Shown here: piece by piece, positions 5,723 through 32,173 of the stretch | Numbering within the stretch: position 1 is the first letter of the stretch | How the letters are laid out: each line of letters opens with the position of its first letter | Virus record (IMG/VR): IMGVR_UViG_3300040807_002411 | Coordinates: 1 to 34,845 of that record | Length of the DNA stretch: 34,845 bases | Direction: 5' to 3' (one strand) | DNA from: a virus | Notes under the pieces: generated by a model | Told to the model about the DNA's origin: nothing | The model's input: only the letters and a program-made list of their open reading frames with translations | Database searches by the model: none | Program-made: the position numbers and the translations under genes

Positions 5723-5741
5723 TCTTCACTCTTTCTATAAA

Positions 5742-9856: not shown

Positions 9857-9865
9857 GTTTTTCCC

Positions 9866-12139
9866 TTAATAAATTTGATCCTGTTCAATCACAACAAGAC
9901 TTCCGTCTCCAACAAATTCCGTATCCAATTCTGAAAAATTGTATTTGATTGTTCTTACAATCATGTCAATGCTTACTCCATCTTCATCACGATTGGCCTT
10001 AATTCGATCACCAACCAAAATATCATCCCGTATTCTACCAACCTTCAGTGTGATTACATTCTTATTAATTGTATTTTTTATATTCAATAAAACGGTTTCA
10101 ATAACTGACGAATCCTCAGAAATTGGAGTAATGTCCAGTATTTCTCCAGAGGCCATATTTGAAATCATCACGCTTTCTTCTCTTGTAGTCAAAGAAGTCG
10201 GAATGGTTTTGGAGGTTGCAATATTTTCAGTCCATTTTGTTCTCAAGGCTTTCACTGGGGTTGGCATCTTGTAAGTTGCTTCAATAATTTCCCAGTTATT
10301 AATAATCTTAAAAACACTAGGATTCAATCCTCTGTCAATTACTCTTAGTATATCATTTTTTATTTCAAATAAGTAATTTGCTGCGTAGGCAATCTCTCCA
10401 GCAAACTCAATTGTTTTTGTTTGAGCGGTTTGCCATATTTGCAACTTCAAGGAAGAAGCATTTGGCGCTGCAGAAAAATCCACATTGGTAACCCCTACCT
10501 TTCTGGCAACATACTCAAAAAAATCTGAAAGAGTTTCTCCATTTCTAGAAATTCCAGATACCAGGGGGGTTCCTAAAATCGCAGTACCATCCCTTGCCGT
10601 CAGAGGAACAGAGTCTAAACTTCTTACATAATTCGGATAGGCCGGATCAGTAGGATCTGGATTTCCAAGTCCATCTCTTGGAACATTGTCCCAAGTCAAT
10701 AAATCCACCCAATAGGCCCTGGAATAAATAATCTCGTTTGTAGGCAAACGATCTGGGCCAAAATACTCTCCAGGAGCCTCTACAATTGATTTTATGGTAA
10801 CAGAGGTTCCACTGACTGCCAATGTGATGAATCGGCCTGTAGAAAGAGAATGAGCTACTGTTGTTGTGATTGTATAGGTTGTTGAGTTGTAGATAACCTT
10901 GAATTGAGTGGAAGAAGGGACTTCCTTTACTTCATGTCTACCTGAGACTAATCCAGATGTATTTGCTGTTCCTGTAATTGACCCAGTCTGGATGGTTTCC
11001 AAGTCTGTAGGAAGTCTTGCAAAAACATTAAATGTCCAGGGGCCACTTCCTCCATCTGCAATGGAATCTGGATCTCTGACATCAGACACTACATAAAAGG
11101 CACCACTTGTATTCACCTCATTTGGAGTAAACCCAGATAAAGAAACTGTTGAACCAATCAGCAAATTGTGTTTATCTGCAGTCTCCAATGTTAAGGAATC
11201 GACATTTCTGGTAACACCAATAACTTCCAATCCATTTAAAATTCTTCCAGACCTATTCTGGTCACTAGATCCAACAAGAACACCATCATCAAACAAAAGA
11301 ATCGGATATTCTGCATTGTTTGGATCAAGATCTGGATTGGAATATTCAAAGAAAGAATAATCCCCAAGATTATCTCTCAAGGGTCTCTCATCAATCAGAA
11401 TGATGTCCTTCTTTCTATTTATTACACCAAAACTAAAAGGTTGCGGCTTCTTTGTATATGTCTCCATCAAGTATTCGCTGGATCTTTCAAAAGCCGTAGA
11501 AGTCAATCCTCCTAAAAAATTGTAAGTAAAGTGATTATCATCCACCACTGTAATTCTTACAGGCTCAATCACTCCTGTTGCATTATTCAAAGTGTTGAAA
11601 GCATTTATGGATGATCCACTAACTTTTATGAAATCCCCTGTAATCAATCCATGATCTGGAGCAATCACATACCCGTAAGTATTGACTCCTCTAATGGAAA
11701 TTGAATTTACGGAAACAAAAGAAGAATTGTAATCTCTGGCCTGACTTAGTAAATCAACATCTTCTATTTTGTCTTCTAATAAAAAATTAAACTCATCTGT
11801 GTTAAATCCACTCAAATACATTGTCCCATCAAACAATGATTGAATGATGTCATGCTGTTCCCAAGAGATATTTACAGGAATCTTCTGGTTTGGATTGGAT
11901 AATAGTTTTTGATAACCTCCTCCAAATATAGAAAAAGGAGAAAAACGATCATTGGAACGATTGGCAATACTCAAATCACCAAGTCTTACTCCAATATATC
12001 CACCTTTCACTTCCCCCAGTTCTAAGGATGGGCTTTTGGAAAGATAGGGAGAATAGTAATTCTCCCCAATATATCCCTCCTCACTCAAATACCAAGTCTT
12101 GGAGTTGAACTCTATCTCAACTAGAAGTACGTCACTCAT
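9866..12139 (-). CDS. Putative tail hub / distal tail protein (757 aa)
   Basis: A 757-aa protein translated by ATGA overlap with the tape-measure stop. This first gene after the tape measure is normally the distal-tail or hub protein. The N-terminal 130 residues (LLVEIEFNSKTWYLSEEGY; GGYIGVRLGDLSIANRSND; FDGTMYLSGFNTDEFNFLLE) look like the hub-ring domain of tail-tip proteins. Beta modules of the 'HGL.tGD' kind follow at about 150-210, 320-375 and 425-455 (DHGLITGDFIKVSGSS). The C-terminal 180 residues (VARKVGVTNVDF; YLFEIKNDILRVIDRG; IINNWEIIEATYKMPTPV; ILVGDRIKANRDEDG) match in style the D2/D3 parts of siphovirus hub proteins. Family naming is tentative. Confidence 0.72.
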   Translation of the reverse strand: MSDVLLVEIEFNSKTWYLSEEGYIGENYYSPYLSKSPSLELGEVKGGYIGVRLGDLSIANRSNDRFSPFSIFGGGYQKLLSNPNQKIPVNISWEQHDIIQSLFDGTMYLSGFNTDEFNFLLEDKIEDVDLLSQARDYNSSFVSVNSISIRGVNTYGYVIAPDHGLITGDFIKVSGSSINAFNTLNNATGVIEPVRITVVDDNHFTYNFLGGLTSTAFERSSEYLMETYTKKPQPFSFGVINRKKDIILIDERPLRDNLGDYSFFEYSNPDLDPNNAEYPILLFDDGVLVGSSDQNRSGRILNGLEVIGVTRNVDSLTLETADKHNLLIGSTVSLSGFTPNEVNTSGAFYVVSDVRDPDSIADGGSGPWTFNVFARLPTDLETIQTGSITGTANTSGLVSGRHEVKEVPSSTQFKVIYNSTTYTITTTVAHSLSTGRFITLAVSGTSVTIKSIVEAPGEYFGPDRLPTNEIIYSRAYWVDLLTWDNVPRDGLGNPDPTDPAYPNYVRSLDSVPLTARDGTAILGTPLVSGISRNGETLSDFFEYVARKVGVTNVDFSAAPNASSLKLQIWQTAQTKTIEFAGEIAYAANYLFEIKNDILRVIDRGLNPSVFKIINNWEIIEATYKMPTPVKALRTKWTENIATSKTIPTSLTTREESVMISNMASGEILDITPISEDSSVIETVLLNIKNTINKNVITLKVGRIRDDILVGDRIKANRDEDGVSIDMIVRTIKYNFSELDTEFVGDGSLVVIEQDQIY

Positions 12140-15100
12140 GCAAGCATCCTTGCGCCACGATAATTCATTTCACGATCCCTTGAAATTCTTATATTAGAAT
12201 CTGACTTTTCTTCTCCAGAAGTGTCCAAAACTGTTACACTCATTTCCTTTTGTTCTACAACTTCAATCAATCTGGAAAGCAACTGGTTGTTCATAGAGGA
12301 GGTTCTTATTAAGCTTGATGTAAATCCGCTTCCTCCAGAATTCAAACCGCTCATAAATCCATATCCAAGATCCGATACAGAATCACGATTCATCACATAC
12401 TCACCACCTTCCAGTTCTGCCAAAACTCCACCCATTCCATGAGAAGGCCCAAAGACCATTCCTCCATTTTTCATAGAAGGAGTTGGTAACGAATCAATTC
12501 CCAATTTATTAAGAACATCTCCACCAAAATTAGAAGTCAGTTTAGAGTTGTAAAAATCTAATGAATTCCCATCTATCCCAAGTTTAAGTATGTCCGGCCC
12601 AAGAGGAACCAATTTTGTTACGGTTCTTGTTGCCCATTCAAGCACTGTTCCGACAACTCTTCCAAGGAATCCATATTTTTTTACTTCTCTTTGATATCTC
12701 TCTACAAAAGTAATGGCCTTTCTAAATGGATTGTCCACAGAGAGAAAGTCTTTTTCAAAAGAATTACCAAATACATTTCCAGCAATGTCAAATAAGCCGC
12801 CACCATTCTTAAACAGGTTTTGTTCTACATCTATACCAGATAGATCTTCAGAAGGATCAATAGATATATTAAACTCATCTGGCCCTGTCAGGGATTTCAG
12901 TGGATTGGGAATTGTAAATACACTGGACAATGGATTGTCATTCATCCCAAGATCAAATAGGTCTCCTCCACTTTGAAACATTGACAATACAGAAAACACA
13001 TCCTTCAAATCTTCATCTGATTTTACAGCATTGATTCCTGCCATAAAGTCATGCCCCAAAAGATCTGTTGTTTTCTTGTTTACAATGTATTCTCCACCTT
13101 CAAATAAAAATGGAGTCCCTTGGTTTGTAAGCCCCAGCATCCCACTCTGGTGAGATGGCCCTACTGCCAATCCTCCTGTCTGAAGAACTCCTCCTCTACC
13201 ATAATTGATTAGACCTCCATCTCCTTTTGACTTTTCTCCAATCTCTAAATCAATCAAATATTCTGGGCCACCTAGATTGCCATGAAATGGGTTCTTTAAG
13301 GCATTTAATTCAAAAAACGGAAACTGAATCCCAAACATCTTCAATAATTTTGCAGGTAATGCTGTTACAAAATTAATAGTCTCCTGCAACAACATATTGG
13401 GAATCATCAATATTTCGCCCAAGAAGGAATCAAAAATTCCTGTAAATGAGCCTAAAAATGTAGGCACCAATAAATCTAAAATTGCCTTTAAGGAATTACC
13501 TGGAATATTTAAAATGCCGCCAAGAACTGTATTATTAAAACTCTCTGCAAACTTAACAACAAATTCTGAATTTGCAGCCACAATTGCCATTGTTAGTGTA
13601 ACCGGAAGAAGAGCAATTGCTCCTGTAAATATTACAAAGTTTGTTAAAAACTGATCAACATTCTCTCCGATTTTTCCTGTTGCCAACATTGTTAGAGTTA
13701 CCGGAAATAAAGCTATTGCCAAAAATAAGGCCAAACTATTTTTAGTAAACTCTTGAAGACCAATTCCAATATTTTGTTTTAATGTTTTTTCAAATAAATC
13801 TGCTATCTGAAGAGGTATGCCAAATATTACACTAAACAACTCACCCAAACTTCCCTTAAAGAAATCATCTAATTGATTTCCAAAATTCTTAAAAAATTCA
13901 GCAGGATATTCTACAATATATCTAATTCCTTCAATAAGTTCTTGCACTTGTGGTGCTACTATATTCTCAAGTTCTTTTAAACGATCCCCAATTTTACTAA
14001 GACTTTCAACGCTGCCATATGTCTCGCTTAATCCTCCTATAGCATCAAATTGAAGTGACCCCTCATCTAGATCAAATGCTCTTTCCATTGCTGAAGCCAA
14101 CTTTTGCGAATTCATATTCATTCGCATGGTTCCTTCATCCAATCTCTTTTGAACGTCAGGTATTCTTTCCTTGAAAAGAGTATCTACATATTTTGCTGGG
14201 TAGGTAAATGCTCCATCATTTTGATTGAATAATTCATCATATAGACCCTGTACAGGTTCCTGCAAATCCATTTGCTCATCAAATCCAATCTCTGCAAAAT
14301 AATTTTCTGGCTTCCCAATAACTTCTGCAGCAATCACTGTTGCGGCAACAGTAACCCATGCAGGAGCACCAGCAGCACTAAGGCCAACTAAAGCCGCTAA
14401 TCCTGCTGCAGTTGAAAGATCTTGCTTCCCTTCTTCTGCAGTTGAACGTCCTCTTTCTAATCCAAGTGCAGCAATTGCTGCCCCCGTCACTCCTATTCCT
14501 CCTGCAGAAATTCCATATTGAAGAGCACCTTGTAAAATAATATCTAAGAGCCTGTCATCAAAAGATGGCCCACCACCTCTAGGAAGCAATGAGGCCAATT
14601 GAGCAAATGCTGCATTTCCAATAAAGTCCAAGGAGACTCTTAACAACATCCCAGGAGCAATTCCAGCATCTGTCAATGCTTTTGCTTGTTCTTCTGTTGC
14701 TACACTAAATATATTGCTTGTATAATCCTGTAAGGCCAACTGAGTACCAAAGGCAGTCTCTACTGCAAGAGTAGAAAACTTTAATTGCTCCTCCATGATC
14801 TCAAGGCCGTTTTCCCCAATTATTTTTTGCTGAACCTTTGTGGTTACCAACAATGAAGAAAGAAGCTCACTAATTCCGCTTAGTAACTCAGTATTGGAAG
14901 AACTTCCTCCAGAAATTTCAGAAACATTTGCTACATAAACTTCTTCAATATCTCCAGAATCTGTTGTTCTTGTAATTTTCTGAAGTCCAAACAAATCTCT
15001 TCTTGCCAACAATAAACTCTCCATCATATTCGTTGGAGCTACTGTTGTCCCTCCCTGATAGGAAGGAATTCTGCCACCACGACCCATTGAGAACATGCCA

Positions 15101-18100
15101 CTATTCAACATGTCCAGAATAGGAACTCCTAGCTTGTCAACCGAATCCTTACGGATTATGTATTCTCCTCCCTCAAACAAGAAAGGCATTCCTCCTTTTG
15201 CATAACCAACCATTCCACTTTGATGAGAAGGCCCTCTTGCTACTCCTCCAGTCTGTAAAGATCCTCCTGTGCCAAATCCAAAAAGTTTTTTATTGTTTGA
15301 AATAATTGCACCTAATCCACCTATGCCTAATGTAAGCATCAAGTATTCAAGGAATCCCCAAGAATTATTCCTCTTCCCTCTTCCTGGAATTACTCTGGAT
15401 CTTGAAACATCTCCCATTGCAGAAGGCTCAAAGAACCCTCTTTCAAATGCAGATTTTCTTCTGTTTTTTCCAAGCAATTCCAACAAACTTCCTGCAGTTT
15501 TAAAGGATGGAATTGATCCTCCATTCCCAAAATCCAACCAAGACCAAAGACTGAAGTTTCTACCCCACCATCCTAAATCCAAGAAGTCCATTGAAGCATT
15601 AGCAACACCTCTGGATGACCAATCAAAAAGACTGTCTATTGATCCCTTTGTATCCCAAGGCCAGATCCAATCCAATACATTGCTAGAGCCAACACCCCTT
15701 CCACCATCAAAACTAGGAATATCTCCTCCAGATCCAAAAATGGCCCTGTCTTTCAACAAGTAACCAAGAGACCCACTCTTTCCACCAAACATCCAATTGC
15801 CAGAAGTTAGGCTCTTAAATGAATCATATGTAAAATATCCTGTACCCAACAACCCAAGCAATTGAAGAAGTCTTGAATTGTTATTCTTTTTGCTTCCCTT
15901 GGAAACTTGCTCTCTGTAAATCTGATTAGAAAGGGCCAATCCAATTAATGATCCAAATAAACTCAATCCTGGACTATTCCCTAATCCAAGTGATGGAATT
16001 TTACCACCCTTGCCAAACTTAGGAGACAAGTAACCAAGAGATCCGCTTTTTCCTCCAAACATCCAATTGCCGGATGTTAAATTCTTAAAGGAGTCATAAG
16101 CAAAATATCCTGTTCCTAACAGGCCAAGCAATTGTAGAAGTCTTGAATTGTTGTTTTTTCCACTACCTTTGGAAACCTGCTCCTTATAAAGCTGATTGGA
16201 GCCTGACATCAATATCAAAGAGGTTAATAAATCTAAACCAGGATTTGGTTTTCTTCTTGGAGTATCTTCTCCAAAAAGCCAATCTCCAACTCCAAAGCTT
16301 GGAATAGAGCCTCCAGATCCAAAGACAGGCTTGTCTTTCAGCAGATAAGGAAGAGATCCACTCATCCCGCCAACCATCCAATTTCCAGAAGTTAGACTTT
16401 TGAATGTGCCATATCCAGAAAGGCCTACACCCAACAATCCAATTAACTGTAAAATACTAGAAGTGCTATTTTTGCCACTACCCTTTTTTACCTGACCTTG
16501 ATAAAGCTCATTAAAAAGACCCATCATTAGCAGGGAGGACAACAAATCCAATCCTGGAGAGTCTCCAAATCTACGCATTCCAGAATTACTTTTTCCACCA
16601 GATTCAAAAGATGGAATGGAACCTCCAAGGCCAAATTTACTTCTATTGTATTTTTGTGTTCCTGCCCATGTTGCTGGATTTAAATAACTCTTTCCTCCAC
16701 TTTTGAAACCTGTAGAACCCAATCCCATCAATAGCAAAGAAAGCAATCCCATTTCTCCAGAACGCTTTCCTCCTTGCATTGAACTAAACAAACCAATGGA
16801 ACCCAAGGCCCATGAGATGGCTTGAGCCGCAGTCAATGCCTGAGAACCTGCACTTCCCTTGTTTTGCCTTGATCCCAATGGTGAACCAAAAAATACATTT
16901 CCAGGCAACATTCCTGCATCTGCCAAAATGGACATTGCTCCAATAGAAGCAGTTCCTAATCCAAATAAACCCATTCCCATTCCAGCCTCTGGAATAGAGC
17001 CACCCTTGCCGAACCAATTAAAGATATTCCCATAATAGACTAAGGCCTCATACCAATCTCTTTTTGCAAGAGCAGAAGTGTCAGGGCCTTTTACATCATC
17101 ATCAAACCAATTCCAAGGAAGCCAACTGCTTCCAGAGACTCCTTTATAGGGTGTTGCGAGGAATGGATGATAAACCTTCCCCTTCTTTGGGCCGTCTGGA
17201 AGCCAATTCCCAGGCCAGAGCCATCCTAAGTAATCTCCAATGCCAAAACTAGGAATAGATCCACCATTGCCAAAACTAGAAACAGAACCACCATTACCTC
17301 TTAGTGCTTCTAGGTTTGTTCCCAAGAAAAACGGAAGAAGTCCTCCAAAGAATCCTAAACTTACGTCTCCCACAGTGGAACCTGTCCAAGGCCCATACAA
17401 TTGTGAACCTTTATAACCCGTGTACCCCCCAAGTAAGGCAAAAAGTAGAGCTATTGTTTCTAGTTGACCACCTAGCCCAAAACTTGGGACAGAACCTCCT
17501 TTACCCATCTCTGACCCACTCACTCCATCCCATCTCCCGTAACCACTCCACATGGAAGAAGAGGAATAATCAAATGGAGTACTCCCATATCCTAATAATC
17601 CAGCAAGAAGAAGTGCTTTCGTTTGATCAGTATTGTTTGTTTTCGTACCAAATAAACTACTAAGCATCATGTATGAGGCAGCACCACTAATTCCCCCAAA
17701 AATTCCAGCATCTCCTGGTCTACCAAAATATGAACCTGGCCCTCTAAATATATCGCTTAAAAAGTTTCCACCAATTCCACCCAAAAGTCCTGCAAGTAAA
17801 GCAATGTCACCACCACTTCTAAAGGAAGGAATTTCTCCACCATCCCCAAATACAGGTTTTCCGCTCTTCCACCATTTGTAACCACGATATCCACCATATC
17901 CAAGTAAGGATAACAGCATGATCTGGTTGATTGGAGCAATATCTCCATAATTCCCCTTCTCTATCTTTGTAAAATCACTATCTCCATCCTTTGTAGGGAA
18001 TCCCAAACCAATAAGACTCATAAGAGAAAGAGAGGCAAAAATTGGATCAAAGATGTCTCTAAACCTTGTTGGTTTTGTAGGCTTCATCAACTCCAGCAGG

Positions 18101-21100
18101 AAGTTTGAACTTCTTTTTCTTTGAGATCGGCTTCTTGCCGTCATAAAGATGTCCATGTCCTCTGCAAAGGAACTTTCTAAATAATCTGGAGTCTTTGGTA
18201 ATTGCCTGCCCCAGGTATCCATCCAACTCCCTTTTACAGGGCCTGCCGATCTAAAAGACTTTAAAGAACCTCCACTACCAAACATCATTGGCAAAATTCC
18301 TTGATTGATCAGATCAAGGTTATCCATCCCAATAGAATCAACTGCATCCTTATTAATAATGTATTCACCACCTTCAAATAAGAAAGGAGCACCACTAGAT
18401 GTCATTCCAAGCATTCCACTTTGATGAGATGGGCCAATTGCCTGACCAGATGCAAAAGATCTTAGTCCACCACCTGCACCAAAAGAAGTGTATCCTGTGT
18501 CAAAATTCCCTGTTAACAGGTCATTCATATATTTATTGTCAAAATAACTATCCATCTTATTGGAATTGATGCTACCAATGCTTACATTGTCTGCAATCAA
18601 AACAATTTGATCAGAATTTGCAGATCTTCCTGAGATATTAAACATCTCATTTGCAATGGAACCGCCTTTCCCAAAGTTCATTCTGTCTAGATTTGATTTT
18701 CCAATAGATGCTACTGACTCCTTGCTAAAAATATATTCTCCTCCTTCAAATAAGAAGGGGCCTCCATCTGGACTCAACCCAATCATTCCTCCTTGATGTG
18801 AGGGGCCAATTGCCATTCCTCCAGACTGAACACTTCCTCCTTTTGCAAATCCCTTATAACTTGTATATCTTGAAGCTACATTGCCTCTTGATAAAAAGCT
18901 TGGAACTGCAGGAATTGAACTCTTTGAACTAGAATCATTTGAAAAGAAACTAAATGGTTTTGATGTATTGGATCTGGAACTTCCAAATAAACTAGGTAAT
19001 CCCAAATCAAAAATATTTACTGCTCCTTCATAGGCTCCATAAAGCGCAAGCAGTCCAAGAAGCTTATCATCACCCAATTCACTAAGATCCTCTCCACCCT
19101 TGTCTCTCATTCTAATCAAGCTTCTTATGAATTTGTCTGAAGTGACAGAGAGCCAATCCCAAATACTACCTTTCCCATATTGATCATCATATTGCAGAAA
19201 ACTGTCCTTCCCAAGAACTGGAGCCAAAGAAAGAAATGCTGGAATCCAGGCCCAAGTAATGTCAGCAAGGCTTCCTTTTGTCTTTTTATAATTTCCAAAA
19301 CTAAGAACTTCCAACCAATCTCCAACATCCTCACCCCAGACACTCCTTCCTTCTGCCATTCCTAAGAAAGAAGAAACCAAGGAGGCCATACCAATACCAA
19401 GAACAGCAATCTCTCCTAAACTCCATTCTTCTCTAGAAGCATCACCACCACCAAACATTCCTCCAAGGGCACTAATATTTGTTAAATAATTCCCAATGTT
19501 TGCACCAAATGATCCAATCAAGTCAATTGATCCATTGATCAATCCCCAGCCACTTCCAATGATTGCATCAACTGCTGACTTAATCATTCCTCCTACAAAA
19601 CTAGGGGCACCAATTGAGTCAAGAAAACTTAGATCAATGTTTAATTTTTCATATTTATTTGAAGTAGAAAGATCATCTCTTCTTCTTGTTTCATTTACCA
19701 ATCCGTTTCTATTACGGGCCAGCATCTTCTCTGGTGAAATCTTATTTCCAGAAAAACTTCTAAATGAGCCAATCTCAGAAGGATCTAATGCCGACCAAGT
19801 CCCACCGCCATTCTCAAACCTTGGAATCAATCCTCCTGTTTCCCAATTTCTAAATTCCATTCCATAGGGGAATCCCATTGAGGTTTCAATTCCATGATTA
19901 CCAAATAGACTTTTAAACCACCCTCTTGTTGAAATACTTGCATCAAAAAAGTCATGAGTGCTTAGCCAACTCTGAGGTTCAATTAACCTCATTGGATCAG
20001 TTTTTGAAGAAGGGGCCTCTGGATTGTTTTTCTTGCTTTCTTTGTTTGTGTTATTGATCCTTATGTCTAATATGCTTCCTAGATCTGTAATCTGATTTGC
20101 GTAGTCCACTAAATCTGTTCTCTCAAATTGAGAGGCCTTTAGGTCAAAAATATTCTCTTTGAATCCATAATTACCACCTCCATATCCACCCTCATTCCAA
20201 GAAGTATTTCCTCCATTTTCAAATCTTGGAATCATTGAAGAAACCATCCTGGATAAGGATTTTTTGTCCTTCACTCCATTGATCATTGAGAAGAAGTCAG
20301 AACCCAATCCAGAAACTGTTTTCTTATTTATAATGTACTCTCCACCCTCTAATTCAATAGGGCCTTGTCCTGAGACATTTGCAAGAATTCCACCTTGTTG
20401 ATGAGAAGGCCCATGTAACAAACCACCCTTTGCAAACTCAATCAAGTAATCTGGCTTAATGGCAGGATAGAATGGGTTTTTTAACATCTGCAATTTGTCC
20501 AATAGTGATTTTGGATCACCAAAGACACTGTTCACTGCATTCTGTAGCTGTTCTCCAATGTTTAGATTAACTCCATCCAGAGAGAGTCCTGAAAAGAGAT
20601 TATTCCATTCTGTCTGGAAATCTCCCAACCCTATACCAAGATCAATATCTGAAAGGTCTGGTAATCCTAAATTATCAAACCAACTCTTGAAAGAATCCCA
20701 ATTGCTCAAGTCTGGAAGATTCAAACTTGCTGTCCATTGATCCCAATTTTCTTTAAAATCTCCCCATCCCCCTGGGATATCTAACTGTGCGGCCCAATGC
20801 TCAAACATGGAAACCCAGTTATCCCAACTTGCCAAATCTGGAATTCCTAACATATCTAGGAAATTATCCCAATTTGTTTTAATGGTTTGAAATCCTGTCT
20901 CTAAATTAGTAATTAGCTGATTAAGGCCTCCTTCTAATTCTCCCCAAATTGTTTCTATTCCAAAAATAATATTATTCCAAAGAAGTTGAAGTGCCTCTCC
21001 AAGATTTCCAAATAAATCAAAATCAATTCCCAAATCAAATAAATTAAATCCAGTAGTCCCTTCTTCTCTTGTGAAGGTTACATCTTGAGGAGTGACATCT

Positions 21101-24100
21101 CCAATCTCAGGTTGCACCCTTTTTAGTGCTGCAGCACGGCCTTCTTCAATAGCAACAATCATTTCGGATTCTTGAAGAGCAACTGCATCTGCAATTCTTT
21201 GACCTGTCTCGTAATCTATTCCAAAAAGCCTCTCAAAATCTGTTCTGACAGAAGAAGAACTAATGGCCTCACCCATTGAGCTTTCCCATTGAGTAATGGC
21301 ATCATCTCTGTATTTATAAAAGGCCTCTTCAACCTCTCCGAAGTCTCCAATTGAACCAAAGTCAGCAAATTCCTTTAAATCAATATCATCATCAATCTGT
21401 GCAAGCTTGTAACCAATGTAGGTTAGCAAATCGTTGTAACTAATAAATCCATTGCGATATACATTTACTGCATCTGCAAGCATATCTCCCATCGGAGATC
21501 CTGCTACCTGTAATTCAAATATCCCCTTTTTCAATGCTTCTGTAATGTCTGCACCTACGGCCTTTGCAGAGGCCTCCTGCAAGGATTGAAGATCCTCAAT
21601 TACTCTTACATAAATCTGCTGATATGCACTGGATGTCTTCAAAACATCTTGGGCCTGTTGCAAATAAACCTGAGTAAAGTTCTTGTAATCCTCTACTGCT
21701 TTTTCATCTGCACCCATTCTTGTTGCTGCCTCATACAATTCATTGTATTTTTCAGAGGCCAATTCCAGCTTTACTCCTGGTGCAGAAATATTTAATGCAG
21801 AATTCATAATAGAGAAAATCACATCCTCTATATCCTGCAATGTATCCGCAAGTCCCTTAATGGAATTATTGATCTCTCCAATAATATCTCTTTCTTGTCG
21901 AAGAAGATTTAAGGATTTGTATTTATCTGTAGAAGTCTCAATCCCCAAACCATTCAAAATTCCAGAAAAAATCTGATCCAATGTGTCTGCAAAAATTCCA
22001 AATATTCCAGAAATCAATCCAACCAATAATTGAAGAAATCCAGAAAGATAAATGAGTATTGGAGTTAAGGATTCAATTAATCTTGCAAAAGGCTGAATCA
22101 CTTGAGTAAAGGCTCGTAAAATCTGCTTTACTGCACCTCCCATCATCTCAAAAAGAGGACGAAGAGGCTCAACCATATCAACCAAGGCTTCAAAAACAAT
22201 AGCAATTCCTTCTGCAAAATCTCCAAAAACATCCATGAAAATACTCATGAATCTATCTAAGGTTTTCTGGAACCTTTCATTTTGCATTAAAGAATCAAAA
22301 GTAAGATTCATAATTGCAGTGGTTGGATCTTTAAATGCCAACTTTACTGAATCAATGATACTTTTCCCATACTCTAAAAATTTGTTCTCTTCTTCCTTTT
22401 GTGGTTGGGCCTCCGTATTTTCTTCAACAGCAACCGTTAGTTGTTCAATTGCTAATTTTGTTTCTGGAGTCATTCCTGCAGGAGAGCCTGTTCCAGGCTG
22501 ACCGTATATCGGAGCATCCTTATATTTCTCAGCAAGATCATCTACAGACTTGATCCCAGTTTTGTTTGATTTTGACAATTCATCAGTTGTCTCCTTTAAG
22601 GCCTCCATTGAGTAGTTCAACTCTTCAAATTGATGAGAACCCATCGAATAGGCCATTCTCCCTAAATTTGCTTGAGACACTTCCTCTTTTGTTGGCAACT
22701 TCCCATAAGAGGCTGCTGCCATTCCACCATTTTGAAATTTCCTTGCATTTAATGCATCAAACAAAGGAATTCCATAATTTGCTACAGCCTTCTTATTGAT
22801 AATATATTCTCCTCCTTCCAACTCGATTGGCTGTCCATTCAAATAACCACCAATTCCTCCATTATTGTGAGATGGGCCACTAAGCAATCCGCCTTTTGAA
22901 AGAGTTCTTCTGCCACCAATTTCTCTACCTTTTTCTCCAATAAACTCTCCCAGTTTCTTATTAATGGAATCAACCCATGTTTCTGTATAATTAAAGAACT
23001 TCTTTTGTTCTTCGTTTATCTGATTTTGAATATCAATTAATTCTCTGGCTCTCTCAACTCTAATAATCTCATCATCTGTTAATTTTTTCTGATACTCTTC
23101 TGCAACATCAAGAACCCCATTCTTGAATGTCAGCATATATGCAGGAATATCCTGAGAAACCATAATATCAAAGGCCTTACTAATATCTTGTTCTAGTCCA
23201 GCAAGAGGATCAGCTTCCATTCCTGCGCTAATTTTCAGTTGCTGGGACAGGCTCATTCCTTCCAGTTGTTGGGCCTTGTATGCTTTTACTTGATTGAGTA
23301 CCTGCTCTTTTAAAAGGTCATCCTTACTTTTTTGAAGCTCTTTCTGAAACTCCAATTCTTTCGTTATTTCTTGCTCATAATTAAGCTGATCCTGCTTTTT
23401 TGACAACATGTCTGTAACATTCTTGATCTGCTCCTCGTTATATCCTTTTTGCTTTAGGGAGTGATACAAAATGTTCTGTTCTACCTTGTCTCTTTCTTCC
23501 TGTAACTTTTTAGCTCTTTCAATTGGAGAAACTGCTTTTTGGAATAAACTTATCTCTTCATTTAAAAGGAATATATTTCTTTTGCTAAGTTGAATTTCCT
23601 CTTCTAAGGCCCTTGTTTCTCTTACGGCCTCTAATGCAATTTCTTGTTCTTTTAAGGTAACCAGGGTTTCCGTTTCTGTTTTCAGAATCTCTTTTGCTTC
23701 TTCCAGTTGGGCCTTCGTATGGCCTTCCAAGGCCATTCTTTCCAAAGTAATTTGATTTTGAAGTTCAGACTCCAATCTTACTGTGTCTAAAATTAAATCC
23801 CGATAACCCTTGTGTTGTTTAATTACCTTAATTTGACGATTATTTAACCTCTCTGTAAGTTTTAACGACTTTAACTCTTCTGCAGAAGATTGCTTAAACT
23901 CTTCCATCTTTCTGGAAAAGGCCAATTCTGTCTTAATCAAATCCTGAGTAAGTTTCTCAATGTTTTTATAAAGCAAAGATTCAACCGTTCCACCAAGAAT
24001 GTCTGGCAAAATGGAAACTCCACCTGCATCCTTCACTTCTTTTATTTTCTTTGCAATGGCCTCATCACTAAGAATTTGATCAACAATCCCCTTAAAATTG

Positions 24101-26550
24101 AATATGTTTTTTGCCTCATCTTCTGTAAGACGAAAGGATGGGCCTATTTTCTTTCCAGTTTTTGCAATTTCCTTGTAAAAATTATTGATATTCAAAGGAG
24201 ATCCTTCTCCTGTCAAATCAAATATTTTACTTAAATCTACACTGGCCTCTGGAACTCTTTTTTCAATCTCCTTTTGAAGATCAGATGCAAAGGAAGAGGC
24301 AAAACCAGCCAAGGATTCTTGACCAGGAATAAATCGAACATCAAATGGCTTGCTAAACTGAAGTTCAAACAACCTCCTCATTTCAGAGGCCTCAATATCT
24401 ACCAACCTTTTTGCATTTTCAATTTGCGCCTTAAATCTAGCCATAAACTGCTCTCTTGCAGTTTTATCTCTTTCCTGACGCATTTTATTTTGTGCCGCTT
24501 CAAGCTCTGCAAGTTTTGATTTCTCTGCAGCAAGCTCTGCATCTATTCTGTCCTTGGCAACTTGATCCATCCCCATAGGCTCTTTGCCCATCATGGCATC
24601 AGTCCACTTGCCACCAAAAACATCCCATGCATCATCAGATTGTTTCTTCAGATCATTGAAATATTGTCTCGTTGAACTCCTCAAGGATTGAATTCCTGCA
24701 GTGAGTGTTCCTGTAAAATCAAGATAACTCATCCACTCTGCTGCCATTAAAAAAGAATCTGCAATACTCTGAAGAGTCACAATTGCAATCTTATTCAACC
24801 CAGCAAAAATTCCTCGTATAATGGCTTCAATAAAATATGCTATTTTTCTAAATGTGTTTTTTGTTTTGTCTTCCAGACTCACCATCTGGCTTTCAATTTT
24901 CTTCTGTTCTTTCTCCAACTCTTGAATAGCAAGTGTTACCTGTGAAACCTCAAAAGAAATATTTCTATAAACAACAGATATCTTCTGAAGCTCATCCAAG
25001 GCCTCACCACTTTGCTCTTCCAGTTGTTTCATCTCTCTTTCAGCCCTACGAATTACTCCTGCAAGATCTTCAGTAGTATTTGAGAGATACTTCATCTTGT
25101 CACCAAGAGCATCAAATGTTTTGCTTGCTGCAAAAAATGATGCTGCCACCATTGAAAGCTTAACTAGATTTGCAACCAGATTCCCTTTTGACATTGCCTG
25201 GACAAAAGCCAAAGCCTTCCCAAATGCATAAGTTGCTGCAGTAAGTGTTCCGAATACACCAATAAATGCGACAAATGAACCAACCAAGGGGACAATATTT
25301 GCTGCAATCTTTTCCAGCACATCACCCAGTTTCCCTAGTCCTGTTCCTTCAATCAGTTTTCTAATGGCCCCACCCAATTTTATAAATGATAAGGCCAGGG
25401 TTGTATTTGCATTCTTGACACTTTCTGTAGAGCCAAGAGCCAACTGCATTGATGTGCGAACAACTTCCATTGCTTGTGAAATTGTAGGCTTCATCTTTGA
25501 AAAGGATTTATTGATCTCATCTGTTGCTTCCAACATTGCAGAAACAATAATCTCTGTGGTGATCATTCCTTCAGAAGCAAAAGAACGCAATTCACCAACA
25601 GTAATTCCAATGGATTTGGAAATACTCTTTGCAAGAGTTGGAGCCAATTCAAGAATAGAACGGAGTTCGTCACCTTGTAGGCGACCAGAGGCAAGGGCCT
25701 GGGACAACTGAACAATCGCATTTCTTGCTTCTTCAGCAGTTGCTCCAGCAATTTGGAAGGATTTGGAAACTGTAGAAGTCACCTGTGCAAGAGCCAATGA
25801 GTTTTCAGCCAACTCCTGAGAGTTTCTACCTACTCTTGCCATCAAGTTTCCAACAGCAAATAAGGACTGCCTTGTTTCCAAAGCAATGCTACCTGCTGCT
25901 TTCATATTTATATTAAACGTATTTAAATTATCATTTACTAGTCGAAGTCTATTCTCAAGAAGAATGAATTGATCTGTAACACGAATTAAATATCCAACTA
26001 AATTAACCTGTATAAAGTTAATTACGGCCTGTATCAAAATACTGAATAAGTATTCGTTTAACTTTAGGGATTTGTTCAGCTTATCAAAAGTATCTTTAAG
26101 ACCAGAAAGATCCCTTCCTAGTACAACAAAGCTTTTTCCTGTTTTGTCTAGTGCTCTATTGGCCCTATCTAACTTGTTTGCAAGTCCATTGACCCTTGCT
26201 TCAGATTGTGCCAGCTGTCTTGTGGCAGAAGATAAATGTTTCCTTACATCAGCAAGAGTCTGTGATAATTGTTTGTTCTCACGATGAAGTTTTTGCATTT
26301 CACGATGGTATCTTACCACAGTGACTCTAGCCATTTTCCCCATAAGATCCTGCATTTGTTGCATAGGCCCCACGGCCCTTGCTACAGAATCTTCGATATT
26401 CTCAAATGTTTTCTCTAATCTGCTGACAGAAGAAGATGTTTTCTTTGAAGATTTTTCAACTGATTCTAATCTTGAATCAAGATTGTCTAACCCTTGTTGA
26501 GCCTTTTTAGAATCTAACTCAACCGTCATCATTGCGGTAGTAGTAGCCAT
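12136..26550 (-). CDS. Giant tape measure protein (4804 aa)
   Basis: This is the tail length ruler, bound inside the tube during assembly and released on infection. Residues 10-160 are coiled coil. Residues about 190-385 match the tape-measure N-terminal domain (TIGR02675 type): SGRLQGDELRSILELAP, then SKSIGITVGELRSFASEGMI (288-330). Hydrophobic segments follow (NIVPLVGSFVAFIGVFG near 410), then a long coiled coil about 860-1100. A Trp-rich repeat lies at 1891-1970 and Gly-rich repeats at about 2565-3835. The GPSH...GGEY motif occurs seven times, at residues 1225, 2047, 2582, 2706, 3773, 4464 and 4701. AAGGAG precedes ATG 26550-26548. At about 0.15 nm per residue the tail would be near 0.7 micrometre. 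I saw no lysozyme or M23 peptidase motif. Confidence 0.95.
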   Translation of the reverse strand: MATTTAMMTVELDSKKAQQGLDNLDSRLESVEKSSKKTSSSVSRLEKTFENIEDSVARAVGPMQQMQDLMGKMARVTVVRYHREMQKLHRENKQLSQTLADVRKHLSSATRQLAQSEARVNGLANKLDRANRALDKTGKSFVVLGRDLSGLKDTFDKLNKSLKLNEYLFSILIQAVINFIQVNLVGYLIRVTDQFILLENRLRLVNDNLNTFNINMKAAGSIALETRQSLFAVGNLMARVGRNSQELAENSLALAQVTSTVSKSFQIAGATAEEARNAIVQLSQALASGRLQGDELRSILELAPTLAKSISKSIGITVGELRSFASEGMITTEIIVSAMLEATDEINKSFSKMKPTISQAMEVVRTSMQLALGSTESVKNANTTLALSFIKLGGAIRKLIEGTGLGKLGDVLEKIAANIVPLVGSFVAFIGVFGTLTAATYAFGKALAFVQAMSKGNLVANLVKLSMVAASFFAASKTFDALGDKMKYLSNTTEDLAGVIRRAEREMKQLEEQSGEALDELQKISVVYRNISFEVSQVTLAIQELEKEQKKIESQMVSLEDKTKNTFRKIAYFIEAIIRGIFAGLNKIAIVTLQSIADSFLMAAEWMSYLDFTGTLTAGIQSLRSSTRQYFNDLKKQSDDAWDVFGGKWTDAMMGKEPMGMDQVAKDRIDAELAAEKSKLAELEAAQNKMRQERDKTAREQFMARFKAQIENAKRLVDIEASEMRRLFELQFSKPFDVRFIPGQESLAGFASSFASDLQKEIEKRVPEASVDLSKIFDLTGEGSPLNINNFYKEIAKTGKKIGPSFRLTEDEAKNIFNFKGIVDQILSDEAIAKKIKEVKDAGGVSILPDILGGTVESLLYKNIEKLTQDLIKTELAFSRKMEEFKQSSAEELKSLKLTERLNNRQIKVIKQHKGYRDLILDTVRLESELQNQITLERMALEGHTKAQLEEAKEILKTETETLVTLKEQEIALEAVRETRALEEEIQLSKRNIFLLNEEISLFQKAVSPIERAKKLQEERDKVEQNILYHSLKQKGYNEEQIKNVTDMLSKKQDQLNYEQEITKELEFQKELQKSKDDLLKEQVLNQVKAYKAQQLEGMSLSQQLKISAGMEADPLAGLEQDISKAFDIMVSQDIPAYMLTFKNGVLDVAEEYQKKLTDDEIIRVERARELIDIQNQINEEQKKFFNYTETWVDSINKKLGEFIGEKGREIGGRRTLSKGGLLSGPSHNNGGIGGYLNGQPIELEGGEYIINKKAVANYGIPLFDALNARKFQNGGMAAASYGKLPTKEEVSQANLGRMAYSMGSHQFEELNYSMEALKETTDELSKSNKTGIKSVDDLAEKYKDAPIYGQPGTGSPAGMTPETKLAIEQLTVAVEENTEAQPQKEEENKFLEYGKSIIDSVKLAFKDPTTAIMNLTFDSLMQNERFQKTLDRFMSIFMDVFGDFAEGIAIVFEALVDMVEPLRPLFEMMGGAVKQILRAFTQVIQPFARLIESLTPILIYLSGFLQLLVGLISGIFGIFADTLDQIFSGILNGLGIETSTDKYKSLNLLRQERDIIGEINNSIKGLADTLQDIEDVIFSIMNSALNISAPGVKLELASEKYNELYEAATRMGADEKAVEDYKNFTQVYLQQAQDVLKTSSAYQQIYVRVIEDLQSLQEASAKAVGADITEALKKGIFELQVAGSPMGDMLADAVNVYRNGFISYNDLLTYIGYKLAQIDDDIDLKEFADFGSIGDFGEVEEAFYKYRDDAITQWESSMGEAISSSSVRTDFERLFGIDYETGQRIADAVALQESEMIVAIEEGRAAALKRVQPEIGDVTPQDVTFTREEGTTGFNLFDLGIDFDLFGNLGEALQLLWNNIIFGIETIWGELEGGLNQLITNLETGFQTIKTNWDNFLDMLGIPDLASWDNWVSMFEHWAAQLDIPGGWGDFKENWDQWTASLNLPDLSNWDSFKSWFDNLGLPDLSDIDLGIGLGDFQTEWNNLFSGLSLDGVNLNIGEQLQNAVNSVFGDPKSLLDKLQMLKNPFYPAIKPDYLIEFAKGGLLHGPSHQQGGILANVSGQGPIELEGGEYIINKKTVSGLGSDFFSMINGVKDKKSLSRMVSSMIPRFENGGNTSWNEGGYGGGNYGFKENIFDLKASQFERTDLVDYANQITDLGSILDIRINNTNKESKKNNPEAPSSKTDPMRLIEPQSWLSTHDFFDASISTRGWFKSLFGNHGIETSMGFPYGMEFRNWETGGLIPRFENGGGTWSALDPSEIGSFRSFSGNKISPEKMLARNRNGLVNETRRRDDLSTSNKYEKLNIDLSFLDSIGAPSFVGGMIKSAVDAIIGSGWGLINGSIDLIGSFGANIGNYLTNISALGGMFGGGDASREEWSLGEIAVLGIGMASLVSSFLGMAEGRSVWGEDVGDWLEVLSFGNYKKTKGSLADITWAWIPAFLSLAPVLGKDSFLQYDDQYGKGSIWDWLSVTSDKFIRSLIRMRDKGGEDLSELGDDKLLGLLALYGAYEGAVNIFDLGLPSLFGSSRSNTSKPFSFFSNDSSSKSSIPAVPSFLSRGNVASRYTSYKGFAKGGSVQSGGMAIGPSHQGGMIGLSPDGGPFLFEGGEYIFSKESVASIGKSNLDRMNFGKGGSIANEMFNISGRSANSDQIVLIADNVSIGSINSNKMDSYFDNKYMNDLLTGNFDTGYTSFGAGGGLRSFASGQAIGPSHQSGMLGMTSSGAPFLFEGGEYIINKDAVDSIGMDNLDLINQGILPMMFGSGGSLKSFRSAGPVKGSWMDTWGRQLPKTPDYLESSFAEDMDIFMTARSRSQRKRSSNFLLELMKPTKPTRFRDIFDPIFASLSLMSLIGLGFPTKDGDSDFTKIEKGNYGDIAPINQIMLLSLLGYGGYRGYKWWKSGKPVFGDGGEIPSFRSGGDIALLAGLLGGIGGNFLSDIFRGPGSYFGRPGDAGIFGGISGAASYMMLSSLFGTKTNNTDQTKALLLAGLLGYGSTPFDYSSSSMWSGYGRWDGVSGSEMGKGGSVPSFGLGGQLETIALLFALLGGYTGYKGSQLYGPWTGSTVGDVSLGFFGGLLPFFLGTNLEALRGNGGSVSSFGNGGSIPSFGIGDYLGWLWPGNWLPDGPKKGKVYHPFLATPYKGVSGSSWLPWNWFDDDVKGPDTSALAKRDWYEALVYYGNIFNWFGKGGSIPEAGMGMGLFGLGTASIGAMSILADAGMLPGNVFFGSPLGSRQNKGSAGSQALTAAQAISWALGSIGLFSSMQGGKRSGEMGLLSLLLMGLGSTGFKSGGKSYLNPATWAGTQKYNRSKFGLGGSIPSFESGGKSNSGMRRFGDSPGLDLLSSLLMMGLFNELYQGQVKKGSGKNSTSSILQLIGLLGVGLSGYGTFKSLTSGNWMVGGMSGSLPYLLKDKPVFGSGGSIPSFGVGDWLFGEDTPRRKPNPGLDLLTSLILMSGSNQLYKEQVSKGSGKNNNSRLLQLLGLLGTGYFAYDSFKNLTSGNWMFGGKSGSLGYLSPKFGKGGKIPSLGLGNSPGLSLFGSLIGLALSNQIYREQVSKGSKKNNNSRLLQLLGLLGTGYFTYDSFKSLTSGNWMFGGKSGSLGYLLKDRAIFGSGGDIPSFDGGRGVGSSNVLDWIWPWDTKGSIDSLFDWSSRGVANASMDFLDLGWWGRNFSLWSWLDFGNGGSIPSFKTAGSLLELLGKNRRKSAFERGFFEPSAMGDVSRSRVIPGRGKRNNSWGFLEYLMLTLGIGGLGAIISNNKKLFGFGTGGSLQTGGVARGPSHQSGMVGYAKGGMPFLFEGGEYIIRKDSVDKLGVPILDMLNSGMFSMGRGGRIPSYQGGTTVAPTNMMESLLLARRDLFGLQKITRTTDSGDIEEVYVANVSEISGGSSSNTELLSGISELLSSLLVTTKVQQKIIGENGLEIMEEQLKFSTLAVETAFGTQLALQDYTSNIFSVATEEQAKALTDAGIAPGMLLRVSLDFIGNAAFAQLASLLPRGGGPSFDDRLLDIILQGALQYGISAGGIGVTGAAIAALGLERGRSTAEEGKQDLSTAAGLAALVGLSAAGAPAWVTVAATVIAAEVIGKPENYFAEIGFDEQMDLQEPVQGLYDELFNQNDGAFTYPAKYVDTLFKERIPDVQKRLDEGTMRMNMNSQKLASAMERAFDLDEGSLQFDAIGGLSETYGSVESLSKIGDRLKELENIVAPQVQELIEGIRYIVEYPAEFFKNFGNQLDDFFKGSLGELFSVIFGIPLQIADLFEKTLKQNIGIGLQEFTKNSLALFLAIALFPVTLTMLATGKIGENVDQFLTNFVIFTGAIALLPVTLTMAIVAANSEFVVKFAESFNNTVLGGILNIPGNSLKAILDLLVPTFLGSFTGIFDSFLGEILMIPNMLLQETINFVTALPAKLLKMFGIQFPFFELNALKNPFHGNLGGPEYLIDLEIGEKSKGDGGLINYGRGGVLQTGGLAVGPSHQSGMLGLTNQGTPFLFEGGEYIVNKKTTDLLGHDFMAGINAVKSDEDLKDVFSVLSMFQSGGDLFDLGMNDNPLSSVFTIPNPLKSLTGPDEFNISIDPSEDLSGIDVEQNLFKNGGGLFDIAGNVFGNSFEKDFLSVDNPFRKAITFVERYQREVKKYGFLGRVVGTVLEWATRTVTKLVPLGPDILKLGIDGNSLDFYNSKLTSNFGGDVLNKLGIDSLPTPSMKNGGMVFGPSHGMGGVLAELEGGEYVMNRDSVSDLGYGFMSGLNSGGSGFTSSLIRTSSMNNQLLSRLIEVVEQKEMSVTVLDTSGEEKSDSNIRISRDREMNYRGARMLA
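15055..18850 (-). repeat. Gly-rich FGxGGSIPSF repeats in the tape measure gene
   Basis: Within this stretch the tape measure repeats a decapeptide near F-G-x-G-G-S-[IV]-P-S-F more than ten times. Clear copies lie near 17830, 17490, 17295, 17255, 17010, 16625, 16305, 16005, 15725, 15515 and 15070. Each copy is followed by a hydrophobic, Gly/Leu-rich segment that could form a membrane-active helix (for example ALLAGLLGGIGGN). The result is a chain of alternating Gly-rich hinges and hydrophobic helices, about 1270 residues long. Confidence 0.85.
15721..16600 (-). repeat. Three tandem ~90-105-codon repeats in the tape measure gene
   Basis: Three adjacent units read: S-P-G-L-x-L, hydrophobic helix, [LI]-Y-x-[EG]-Q-V-x-K-G-S-x-K-N, L-L-Q-L-[LI]-G-L-L-G, S-x-x-S-G-N-W-M-x-G-G-x-S-G-S-L, then the FGxGG decapeptide. 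Unit 1 is about 16321-16560, unit 2 about 16021-16243, unit 3 about 15741-15979. Units 2 and 3 are the closest pair (both have KNNNSRLLQLLGLLGTGYF), so they probably arose by the most recent duplication. DNA identity has visibly decayed, so the duplication is not brand new. Confidence 0.88.
20641..20880 (-). repeat. Trp-rich ~20-residue repeats in the tape measure gene
   Basis: Residues about 1891-1970 of the tape measure hold four units near W-x-x-x-L-x-[IL]-P-D-L-x-x-W-D-x-[FW]-x-x-x-[FW]. Examples are FLDMLGIPDLASWDNW, HWAAQLDIPGGWGDF, QWTASLNLPDLSNWDSF and WFDNLGLPDLSD. The regular Trp and Pro-Asp-Leu spacing suggests a tandem array of short amphipathic helices, unlike the rest of the protein. 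Confidence 0.8.
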
Positions 26551-27030
26551 TTATCTCCTTCGCCTACCCATGCTTGCCGATCTTCTAGGAACAGGTGCAG
26601 AATAATTCTTTTGAGGGCCTCCTTTATTCTTGGCCTCACTTTTCTTCTTTTCCCGTTCTTGTTTTTTCTTTTCTTCTTCTTGTCGATGTGAGAATAGAGT
26701 CATCTCTATTTTAAATAGAGTCTCATACACATCTGGGTCATTTGCGCCATAACGCTTTAGGTGAGCATCAATGGCTTCTTCACGGAGGGGAGATTCACCA
26801 AAACCACGATCTCTGCCAGTAACATCAAGCATTTTCCAATGCTCCAAACAAAACTGGTTGAAAGGGTCTGGCTCATTCTCAGAAAGAGGACAGACATGAC
26901 AGGGAGGGCCGGAATCATCTTCATTCCAAATATCAGAATGCTGACAACACCATTCAGCTTTAAACCGCATCCCTACTTCAATTCCATGTTCGGGAGAGGC
27001 CTCCTCATAGGAAACCTTTCCCGTTTGCAA
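26551..27030 (-). CDS. Tail assembly chaperone T part, made as a G-T fusion by -1 frameshift
   Basis: This frame has only a TTG at 27030 with no ribosome site, but it stays open upstream to the A AAA AAC at 27054-27048. A -1 slip there adds L-S-F-L-L-E-L-Q-T-G-K-V to the G protein and gives a 286-aa fusion (27410 to 26551). G/G-T pairs made this way, directly upstream of the tape measure, are standard in siphoviruses; G-T binds the tape measure and tube subunits before assembly. The frame carries C28-x2-H31, C44-x2-C47 and C61-x2-H64 (numbered from the TTG), a possible zinc site. A highly charged helix (EEEKKKQEREKKKSEAK) and a basic tail ending MGRRRR follow. The stop abuts the tape-measure start. 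Confidence 0.88.
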   Translation of the reverse strand: MQTGKVSYEEASPEHGIEVGMRFKAEWCCQHSDIWNEDDSGPPCHVCPLSENEPDPFNQFCLEHWKMLDVTGRDRGFGESPLREEAIDAHLKRYGANDPDVYETLFKIEMTLFSHRQEEEKKKQEREKKKSEAKNKGGPQKNYSAPVPRRSASMGRRRR

Positions 27031-27044
27031 CTCAAGTAGGAAAC

Positions 27045-27410
27045 TTAGTTTTTTTCCTGTATCCCAAGCTGATCCCTTGAACGAGTTTCAAGCTCTGCAA
27101 GAAGCTCTTCAATCAAAGGTTGCAATGCTGGATTACGGAACCATTCTCTCTTGGTTTCATCAGTACATGGAATTTGTGATCCACGATCATCAACTACATT
27201 TTCCCAACTAATACATGATTTCAACCATTGTTCTTCAAGGAACTTTGAAATTCCCTTGTTATTTTTGACTCTTTTTTCATAGATTGAAGAAACTTCATGT
27301 CGAGTCAATGGTCGCATTTCAAAATAAACATCCTCCAATTCGGAGTTCATTTCTGCCCCAGGGCATTGAATGCGGAAAGTTTCTTGCAGTTTGCTTGGTA
27401 CAAAAGCCAT
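27045..27410 (-). CDS. Tail assembly chaperone G
   Basis: A 121-aa protein starting MAFVPSKLQETFRIQCPG. Its size, acidic/basic helical make-up and place between the tail tube and the tape measure are those of the siphovirus G chaperone. There is no recognisable catalytic motif. Helical stretches occur at about 37-65 and 94-112 (IEELLAELETRSRD). The last codons are GAA AAA AAC TAA, so the stop lies immediately after the slippery heptamer, the typical arrangement for producing mostly G and a minor G-T product. The start has a weak GGGG at eight bases. The role in tail assembly is inferred from context. Confidence 0.85.
   Translation of the reverse strand: MAFVPSKLQETFRIQCPGAEMNSELEDVYFEMRPLTRHEVSSIYEKRVKNNKGISKFLEEQWLKSCISWENVVDDRGSQIPCTDETKREWFRNPALQPLIEELLAELETRSRDQLGIQEKN
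27048..27054 (-). promoter_or_regulatory. Programmed -1 ribosomal frameshift site A AAA AAC
   Basis: On the minus strand the sequence reads CAG GAA AAA AAC TAA in the G frame. A AAA AAC is an X XXY YYZ heptamer in the correct phase, a well-established -1 slip site. The stop codon follows immediately. A weak stem downstream (TTTCC with GGAAA, about 16-17 bases apart, 27042-27016) could act as stimulator. Slipping joins the G and T frames with no stop between them. Confidence 0.88.
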
Positions 27411-27452
27411 AAATTACCCCATAAATTAAGTGAAATGCCCCATTGTATCGAA

Positions 27453-27672: not shown

Positions 27673-27674
27673 GA

Positions 27675-27971
27675 TTATTCCTCATCTACAGATGAACCAC
27701 CCCAACTCATTCCACTAGAAGAACTAGTAGAACTTGATGGAGAAACCATAGATGAAGGAACTTCAATCCATGAGGTGCCACCATGATCCATGATTTTTTG
27801 CTCAAAATCACTAATAGATGAAGACTCAGACATAATGTTTTTCAACATTGTAAGCGCCTCTGGAGATCCAGATCCAGACATCTGAGAAGTCGGCTTAGAA
27901 TCAGAATTGTCAGCATCAAAGCTGACCTCACAAGAACTATTGCCAACTTGGATCTTATACGAGTATTTCAT
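27675..27971 (-). CDS. Small Ser-rich protein of unknown function (98 aa)
   Basis: A 98-aa acidic protein starting MKYSYKIQVGNSSCEVSF, which looks like two beta strands. A central helix (EALTMLKNIMSESSSISDF) follows, then a low-complexity C-terminus of Ser with Gly, Trp and a final SSVDEE. The start overlaps the tail tube stop as ATGA, so translation is coupled to the tube protein. Genes in this slot are often tail-tube accessory or minor chaperone proteins; no family is recognised here. The C-terminal Ser run may be disordered. Confidence 0.65.
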   Translation of the reverse strand: MKYSYKIQVGNSSCEVSFDADNSDSKPTSQMSGSGSPEALTMLKNIMSESSSISDFEQKIMDHGGTSWIEVPSSMVSPSSSTSSSSGMSWGGSSVDEE

Positions 27972-29797: not shown

Positions 29798-29806
29798 CTT
29801 TTCTCC

Positions 29807-30217
29807 TTAGTCTGAAGAATACACATAGAATTCAACTGAGATTGGTATTTCAAAGTGTGGCCCCTGACCAAACCCTGGCCCAACCTCAAGTGGCGAAAAT
29901 GAATAAGAATAGTTAGCAGTGCTAATATCCTTTTTGCTGAAGAGGTTTTTAAGTACCTCAACATAACTATTCACTGCGCTGGTTCCCGTGTTCTCCTTCA
30001 ACAGAAGATTTAGGCCCATTGCATAATCCCTGCGTACAGCACCTGTGCTTGCAGGAGTTTCTAGAATTTGCGAATCAAGGTTCCGCAAGAAGGGAACCAA
30101 GTACTCAATGTCAGAAGAATAATTTACTGATACATTAAAATTGGCCCATGAAATGACTGGGCTTTGTGTCCAATTATCACTGAGATGACCAAGGATTTCT
30201 CTTTCAAGAAGAAGCAT
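29807..30217 (-). CDS. Tail terminator-like protein (136 aa)
   Basis: A 136-aa protein directly before the tail tube gene, where tail terminators (lambda gpU-like) normally lie. It has an N-terminal helix (LLLEREILGHLSDNW), strands (ISWANFNVSVNY), and a C-terminal strand block F-E-I-P-I-S-V-E-F-Y-V-Y after a G-P-G-F-G-Q-G-P-H-F loop. That alpha/beta order and length fit the terminator fold, which caps the finished tube and joins it to the head. Sequence-level family identity is not certain. The ribosome site is weak. Confidence 0.65.
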   Translation of the reverse strand: MLLLEREILGHLSDNWTQSPVISWANFNVSVNYSSDIEYLVPFLRNLDSQILETPASTGAVRRDYAMGLNLLLKENTGTSAVNSYVEVLKNLFSKKDISTANYSYSFSPLEVGPGFGQGPHFEIPISVEFYVYSSD

Positions 30218-30219
30218 TT

Positions 30220-30651: not shown

Positions 30652-30660
30652 TTCAGAACT

Positions 30661-30708
30661 TTAACCTAATAATTAAATTTTAATTTACCTAGATTAAATT
30701 TTAACCTA
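30661..30708 (-). repeat. AT-rich gap with three TAGGTWAA copies and a direct repeat
   Basis: On the minus strand TAGGTTAA, TAGGTAAA and TAGGTTAA lie at 30701-30708, 30684-30691 and 30661-30668. ATTAAATTTTAA (plus strand) is repeated exactly at 30672-30683 and 30693-30704, 21 bases apart. The element fills most of the gap between the head-closure and neck genes and overlaps the stop of the former. It could be a set of weak ribosome-site-like or protein-binding repeats. Confidence 0.5.
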
Positions 30709-31123: not shown

Positions 31124-31126
31124 GAT

Positions 31127-32118: not shown

Positions 32119-32140
32119 ACGAATCTCCTTCAGTAGTGAA

Positions 32141-32156: not shown

Positions 32157-32173
32157 AAACTGGTTAGTTAGAA

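Follow-up and report, generated by a model that had tools for sequence, protein, structure and literature searches.

In phage TP901-1, the tape measure protein (TMP) accounts for 0.145 nm of tail per residue over the counted region, a value that fits an extended helix (PMC5099701), and the TMP coiled coil of HFTV1 extends along the greater part of the tail (PMC12494034). Giant TMPs are already known in Thermus and Gordonia phages. Gp96 of Thermus phage P23-45 (Oshimavirus) has 5,002 residues and is encoded by a 15.0-kb gene followed by late tail-region genes; the tail of this phage exceeds 800 nm (PMC9022992), and the protein includes a virion RNA polymerase (DFDGD) at its N-terminus as well as a metallopeptidase domain (PMC10770324). 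The TMPs of Gordonia phages Katyusha (3,027 aa) and Hotorobo (3,327 aa), with measured tails of ~500 and ~540 nm, are likewise very long, contain Gly/Pro-rich stretches and are accompanied by a chaperone frameshift; the Katyusha TMP is reported to possess a lytic transglycosylase domain. Hypervariable tape measure regions have also been described in marine and honeybee phage populations (PMC5628999, PMC13331135). With such precedents TMP hypervariability itself is not new.

The locus studied here lies in a window of 34,845 bp (the whole stretch of DNA that was analyzed), which is a linear, fragmentary IMG/VR virus record. Its minus strand encodes, at positions 12136-26550, one TMP of the lambda type, as shown by its domain, its neighbors, a conserved frameshift and the intactness of the frame; the function of a ruler would follow from the family. 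The protein belongs to a known class and comes near the record in size. The gene (14,415 nt) is a single frame of 4,804 codons that begins with ATG, is uninterrupted by stops and fills 41.4% of the window, which, since the record is fragmentary, is not its share of the genome. At this composition, the chance of so many open codons is ~10^-161. Using a codon bias measure trained on the other window genes, we found synonymous codon bias to be positive in 16 of 16 full 300-codon blocks, in 15 of which the true frame outscores both shifted frames, and GC3 is steady along the gene (0.25–0.33). TMP_3 (PF20155; 149.6 bits vs. a cut-off of 41) is the sole Pfam domain over cut-off; TIGR02675 gave 65.9 bits (cut-off 21.35), and 22 tape measure PHROGs match the protein, mostly in its N-terminal third. 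These results bear out the first-pass annotation, which had described an intact 4,804-codon frame of 14.4 kb (about 41% of the window) encoding a TIGR02675-type tape measure protein with correct neighbors, one of the largest of its kind. The last statement is fair: the 55 prophage frames with TMP_3 matches over cut-off, from 398 genomes of the phylum of Pantoea locus L022, encode 442–1,727 aa, and TMPs on remote viral contigs have ~690–1,120 aa where complete; among named phages, P23-45 has a TMP gene of similar length. Unlike P23-45 gp96, the window TMP is far richer in Gly and Ser and has neither DFDGD nor HExxH; only DDDID and DGDSD fit the D.D.D pattern. An embedded enzyme as in P23-45 was rejected, as these motifs and any Pfam enzyme domain are missing. 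The Gordonia TMPs differ from it in being shorter and in their actinobacterial hosts.

The gene is positioned directly downstream of a −1-frameshift chaperone pair, with neck genes further upstream, and is itself upstream of the tail tip genes (Table 1). Its start ATG comes immediately after the stop codon that ends the chaperone frame before it (GAAGGAGATAAATGG). The 121-codon G-like frame, for which a family search returned no match, ends with GAA AAA AAC TAA and is accompanied by a −1 frame of 165 codons. The A AAA AAC site, the zero-length in-frame tail and a −1 extension of 164–166 codons recur in all four related phages examined. A similar layout is found for the G/GT chaperones in phages with long tails, such as phiCbK (PMC3556154). 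Upstream of the pair, the 609-aa protein occupies the same place as a 611-aa protein of CcrColossus. The two proteins do not align; identification as tail tube by sequence was thus abandoned and the assignment is one of position only.

Table 1. Features of the tape measure locus (window positions; residues are those of the window TMP).
Feature	Position	Strand	Evidence
Tail tip protein, 1,179 aa	6317..9856	-	position; homologue in L046
Tail tip protein, 757 aa	9866..12139	-	position downstream of TMP; homologue after TMP in L046
Tape measure protein gene, 4,804 codons	12136..26550	-	open frame, codon bias, TMP profile matches
TMP_3 domain (PF20155), residues 188-375; TIGR02675, residues 262-333	25426..25989	-	profile matches
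GPSH...EGGEY module copy 1	22747..22878	-	internal repeat search
Conserved central block, residues 1396-1935	20746..22365	-	common to relatives (51% L008, 33% L009)
GPSH...EGGEY module copy 2	20278..20412	-	internal repeat search
Extension, ~residues 1936-4223, Gly/Ser/Trp-rich, modular	13882..20745	-	mostly missing in the 2,511-aa L046 TMP; boundaries approximate
GPSH...EGGEY module copy 3	18676..18807	-	internal repeat search
GPSH...EGGEY module copy 4	18304..18435	-	internal repeat search
Three diverged ~100-residue hydrophobic units, residues 3301-3620	15691..16650	-	self-comparison and AF2 model
GPSH...EGGEY module copy 5	15100..15234	-	internal repeat search
GPSH...EGGEY module copy 6	13027..13161	-	internal repeat search
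GPSH...EGGEY module copy 7, near C-terminus	12337..12450	-	placed as in Bacteroides/Elizabethkingia phage TMPs
T-like frame, read as G-T fusion after -1 shift	26551..27030	-	frameshift structure
Tail assembly chaperone, G-like, 121 aa	27045..27410	-	position and frameshift structure
Slippery heptamer A AAA AAC, -1 frameshift	27048..27054	-	conserved in four related phages
609-aa protein, putative, tail tube position	27968..29797	-	synteny with CcrColossus
Tail terminator, Neck1, Hc1, Ad1 neck genes	29807..31924	-	PHROG matches; Hc1 weak (E=0.006)
P22-type coat protein	32174..33484	-	PF11651

We observed that the window TMP is built of unlike parts. By propensity, 53% of its residues (2,524) are helix-like, compared with 62–87% in six comparison TMPs, and the share falls from 80% in residues 1–1900 to 34% in residues 1901–4804. 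Half of its 200-residue blocks hold at least 15% Gly+Pro, and the longest run of such blocks extends over 1,800 residues vs. at most 800 in the comparison TMPs; Gly+Pro amounts to 16–23% over residues 1936–3860. Within this region, the three hydrophobic units are 57–72% identical to one another and are predicted to form helical hairpins followed by FGxGGxIPS linkers. An AF2 model of residues 3500–3860, with the internal copies as alignment, gave pLDDT values of ~70–80 for the hairpins and below 50 for the linkers (mean of the whole model 49.9, low confidence), and Foldseek of this low-confidence model found no match; for residues 1380–2160 the mean was 37.7, with a mere hint of helix. The GPSH...EGGEY module occurs in seven copies over the whole protein, several of them within the extension; it has no family match and nothing credible in PDB by sequence. 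Among named phages, at the threshold used, the module was detected solely in those of Bacteroides and Elizabethkingia, which would be a weak hint at a Bacteroidota host. The TMPs of Bacteroides phage BT2 (848 aa) and Elizabethkingia phage TCUEAP1 (1,227 aa) are, unlike the window TMP, of ordinary size, with one copy found in each; this copy ends 93–108 residues from the C-terminus, and the last copy in the window TMP is similarly placed. A genome search (query A1), considered as host evidence, was set aside, as it retrieved only a remote Pantoea prophage TMP, uninformative on the host.

Giant TMPs run through the lineage of the window phage. In three related contigs they are open at the contig ends, at no less than 3,921 (L009), 2,576 (L008) and 1,758 residues (L011), while contig L046 (IMG/VR 3300044302_005161) has a complete TMP of 2,511 aa (L046:5290-12822, minus strand), followed by homologues of the window 757-aa and 1,179-aa proteins. 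The L046 and window TMPs share the N-terminus (residues 1–515 align with 1–475, 36% identity), the central block (window 1421–1765 with L046 962–1300, 34% identity) and a C-terminal part (window 4224–4521 with L046 1524–1789); identities in the C-terminal pair are 27–37% and boundaries are approximate. Both proteins also have the C-terminal motif. Between the central block and the C-terminal pair, the window TMP has 2,459 residues vs. 224 in L046, a net difference of ~2,235. The region before the central block is ~460 residues longer in the window TMP and the C-terminal part ~440 shorter; as these nearly cancel, the gain of ~2,235 comes close to the total difference of 2,293. L046 thus belongs to the same lineage yet is without the extension of ~2,200 residues. 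In the L009 TMP (L009:3-11765, minus strand), residues ~1850–2820 form an array of 19–20-residue repeats, in part with an 81-residue super-period, which sits after the central block like the window extension but is quite unlike it in sequence.

The L046 TMP also holds a segment (residues 1336–1401) that resembles the FlhB/YscU C-terminal domain (PF01312, 34.3 bits vs. a cut-off of 24.4), with an NPEHYAV motif and matches to FlhB, EscU and SpaS structures. In secretion systems, this self-cleaving domain is part of the switch that reads the length ruler. We found no literature report of a tape measure protein with such a segment, and named phages gave no match; the window TMP does not share it. 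Residues 2375–2408 of the L046 TMP gave a sub-threshold match (18.9 bits vs. a cut-off of 22) to Peptidase_S74, the chaperone of endosialidase, a domain mostly known from tail spikes, and no match in PDB.

In turn, contig L004 is 94.9% identical to the window in DNA up to position 26551, one base ahead of the TMP start codon (L004:16914). Its chaperone genes are nearly identical to those of the window, and its TMP shows 37% identity over the first 430 residues. The ~95% identity ends exactly at the start codon; therefore the TMP gene behaves as an exchangeable cassette. This boundary argues that the gene may have been exchanged as a unit beside nearly unchanged chaperones, and suggests that the same chaperones can accept very different rulers.

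We consider it probable that the window TMP is a single ruler protein composed of a core of ~2,500 residues and a modular insertion of ~2,200. The core would have gained the latter between the central block and the C-terminal part, possibly through small modules that were repeatedly duplicated and inserted. Growth is supported by the complete relative and by the internal repeats, from which the direction and order of events can be proposed; in the simplest history, modules from the C-terminus would have been copied and spread through the protein during its growth. The protein would be made with the G/GT chaperones and dock at the tip through its C-terminus, and rings of the tail tube would assemble along it until it is covered, a mechanism established for lambda-type phages that presumably extends to the window phage. 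More tentatively, tape measure length in this lineage may be tuned by a swappable modular cassette, through whole-gene exchange at the start codon and gain or loss of modules by which lineages differ in thousands of residues, giving severalfold variable tails among close relatives, of ~700 nm here, with a largely non-helical ruler. If true, this would contradict the need for an extended-helix ruler. The window phage and L046 provide a natural test of that need, their predicted tails being 605–845 and 316–442 nm. Our literature search did not find a modular, largely non-helical extension or an exchange exact to the start codon described, and the lineage shows what TMP variation can consist of.

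Over the whole protein, TP901-1 has 0.126 nm per residue (118 nm/937 aa), Hotorobo 0.162, Katyusha 0.165 and lambda 0.176 (150 nm/853 aa); for 4,804 residues, the range of 0.126–0.176 nm predicts a tail of 605–845 nm. A tail of roughly 600–850 nm is plausible for the window phage, and we lean toward one longer than 600 nm. Such a tail would be among the longest of any virus and would extend their known range beyond thermophilic and actinobacterial phages. The ~700 nm given in the first-pass annotation falls within the predicted range; however, the 0.15 nm rule assumes a helix and the TMP is 53% helix-like, so that, while the identity, intactness, neighbors and size put forward there all stand, the tail length is an extrapolation only, unproven because about half of the residues lack helix-like propensity. 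The first-pass annotation did not mention that the protein has a modular insertion and seven GPSH...EGGEY copies, that the gene behaves as an exchangeable cassette or that relatives also have giant TMPs. When only the helix-like residues are counted, the predicted tail shortens to ~380 nm. It is possible, although rather doubtful, that only the helix-like part (approximately residues 1–1935 and the 3860–4440 domain) measures the tail, which would then be ~300–450 nm, the extension being compact or located at the tip or membrane for DNA entry or envelope crossing. The Gly+Pro content of the extension, the unusual length of its Gly/Pro-rich run and the hydrophobic hairpins with disordered linkers suggested by AF2 are consistent with this, and the giant TMP of P23-45 indeed holds a non-ruler virion RNA polymerase (PMC10770324). 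Yet P23-45 has ~0.16 nm per residue despite its RNAP part, and the Gordonia TMPs with Gly/Pro-rich runs of 600–800 residues still fit ~0.16 nm over their full length, which suggests that Gly/Pro-rich stretches contribute to tail length.

That the gene is an assembly chimera or repeat artefact, the real TMP being shorter, appears highly improbable. The longest exact repeat within it is below 20 nt, therefore reads longer than 20 nt could not collapse or expand the repeats; repeat misassembly, a worry raised at first reading, is largely removed and was dropped as the main concern. Contig L010, from another metagenome, is 99.94% identical to window 1–13478 and thereby covers the final 1,343 nt of the gene, and contigs L003 and L004 cover the genes upstream of it, L004 with 94.9% identity over window 26551–34845. 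A search for an independent contig over the gene interior (residues 1–4357) found none, so this part is known from one assembly only, and most relatives' TMPs run off contig ends, which suggests a gene that is hard to assemble. The single frame, the consistent codon usage and the homology to relatives, seen at either end and centrally, speak against this and make chimeric assembly unlikely. We also regard as very unlikely a polyprotein cut at the GPSH...EGGEY modules, with no single 4,804-residue ruler in the virion. It would accord with the sevenfold presence of a module that is placed near the C-terminus in other TMPs, and lambda gpH is trimmed near its own C-terminus; no protease or cleavage site was identified, though, and the module matches no family. 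A single long ruler with a modular insertion is our preferred reading.

Elsewhere in the window, a dCTP deaminase/dUTPase-like gene (33669-34205, minus strand) is located between the scaffold and coat protein genes, and both L004 and L011 have a 178-aa frame in that position. Two minus-strand genes (486-836 and 1379-1720) match one and the same tail fibre assembly PHROG, phrog_4912, which suggests that fibre-chaperone pairs are duplicated where the tail operon ends.
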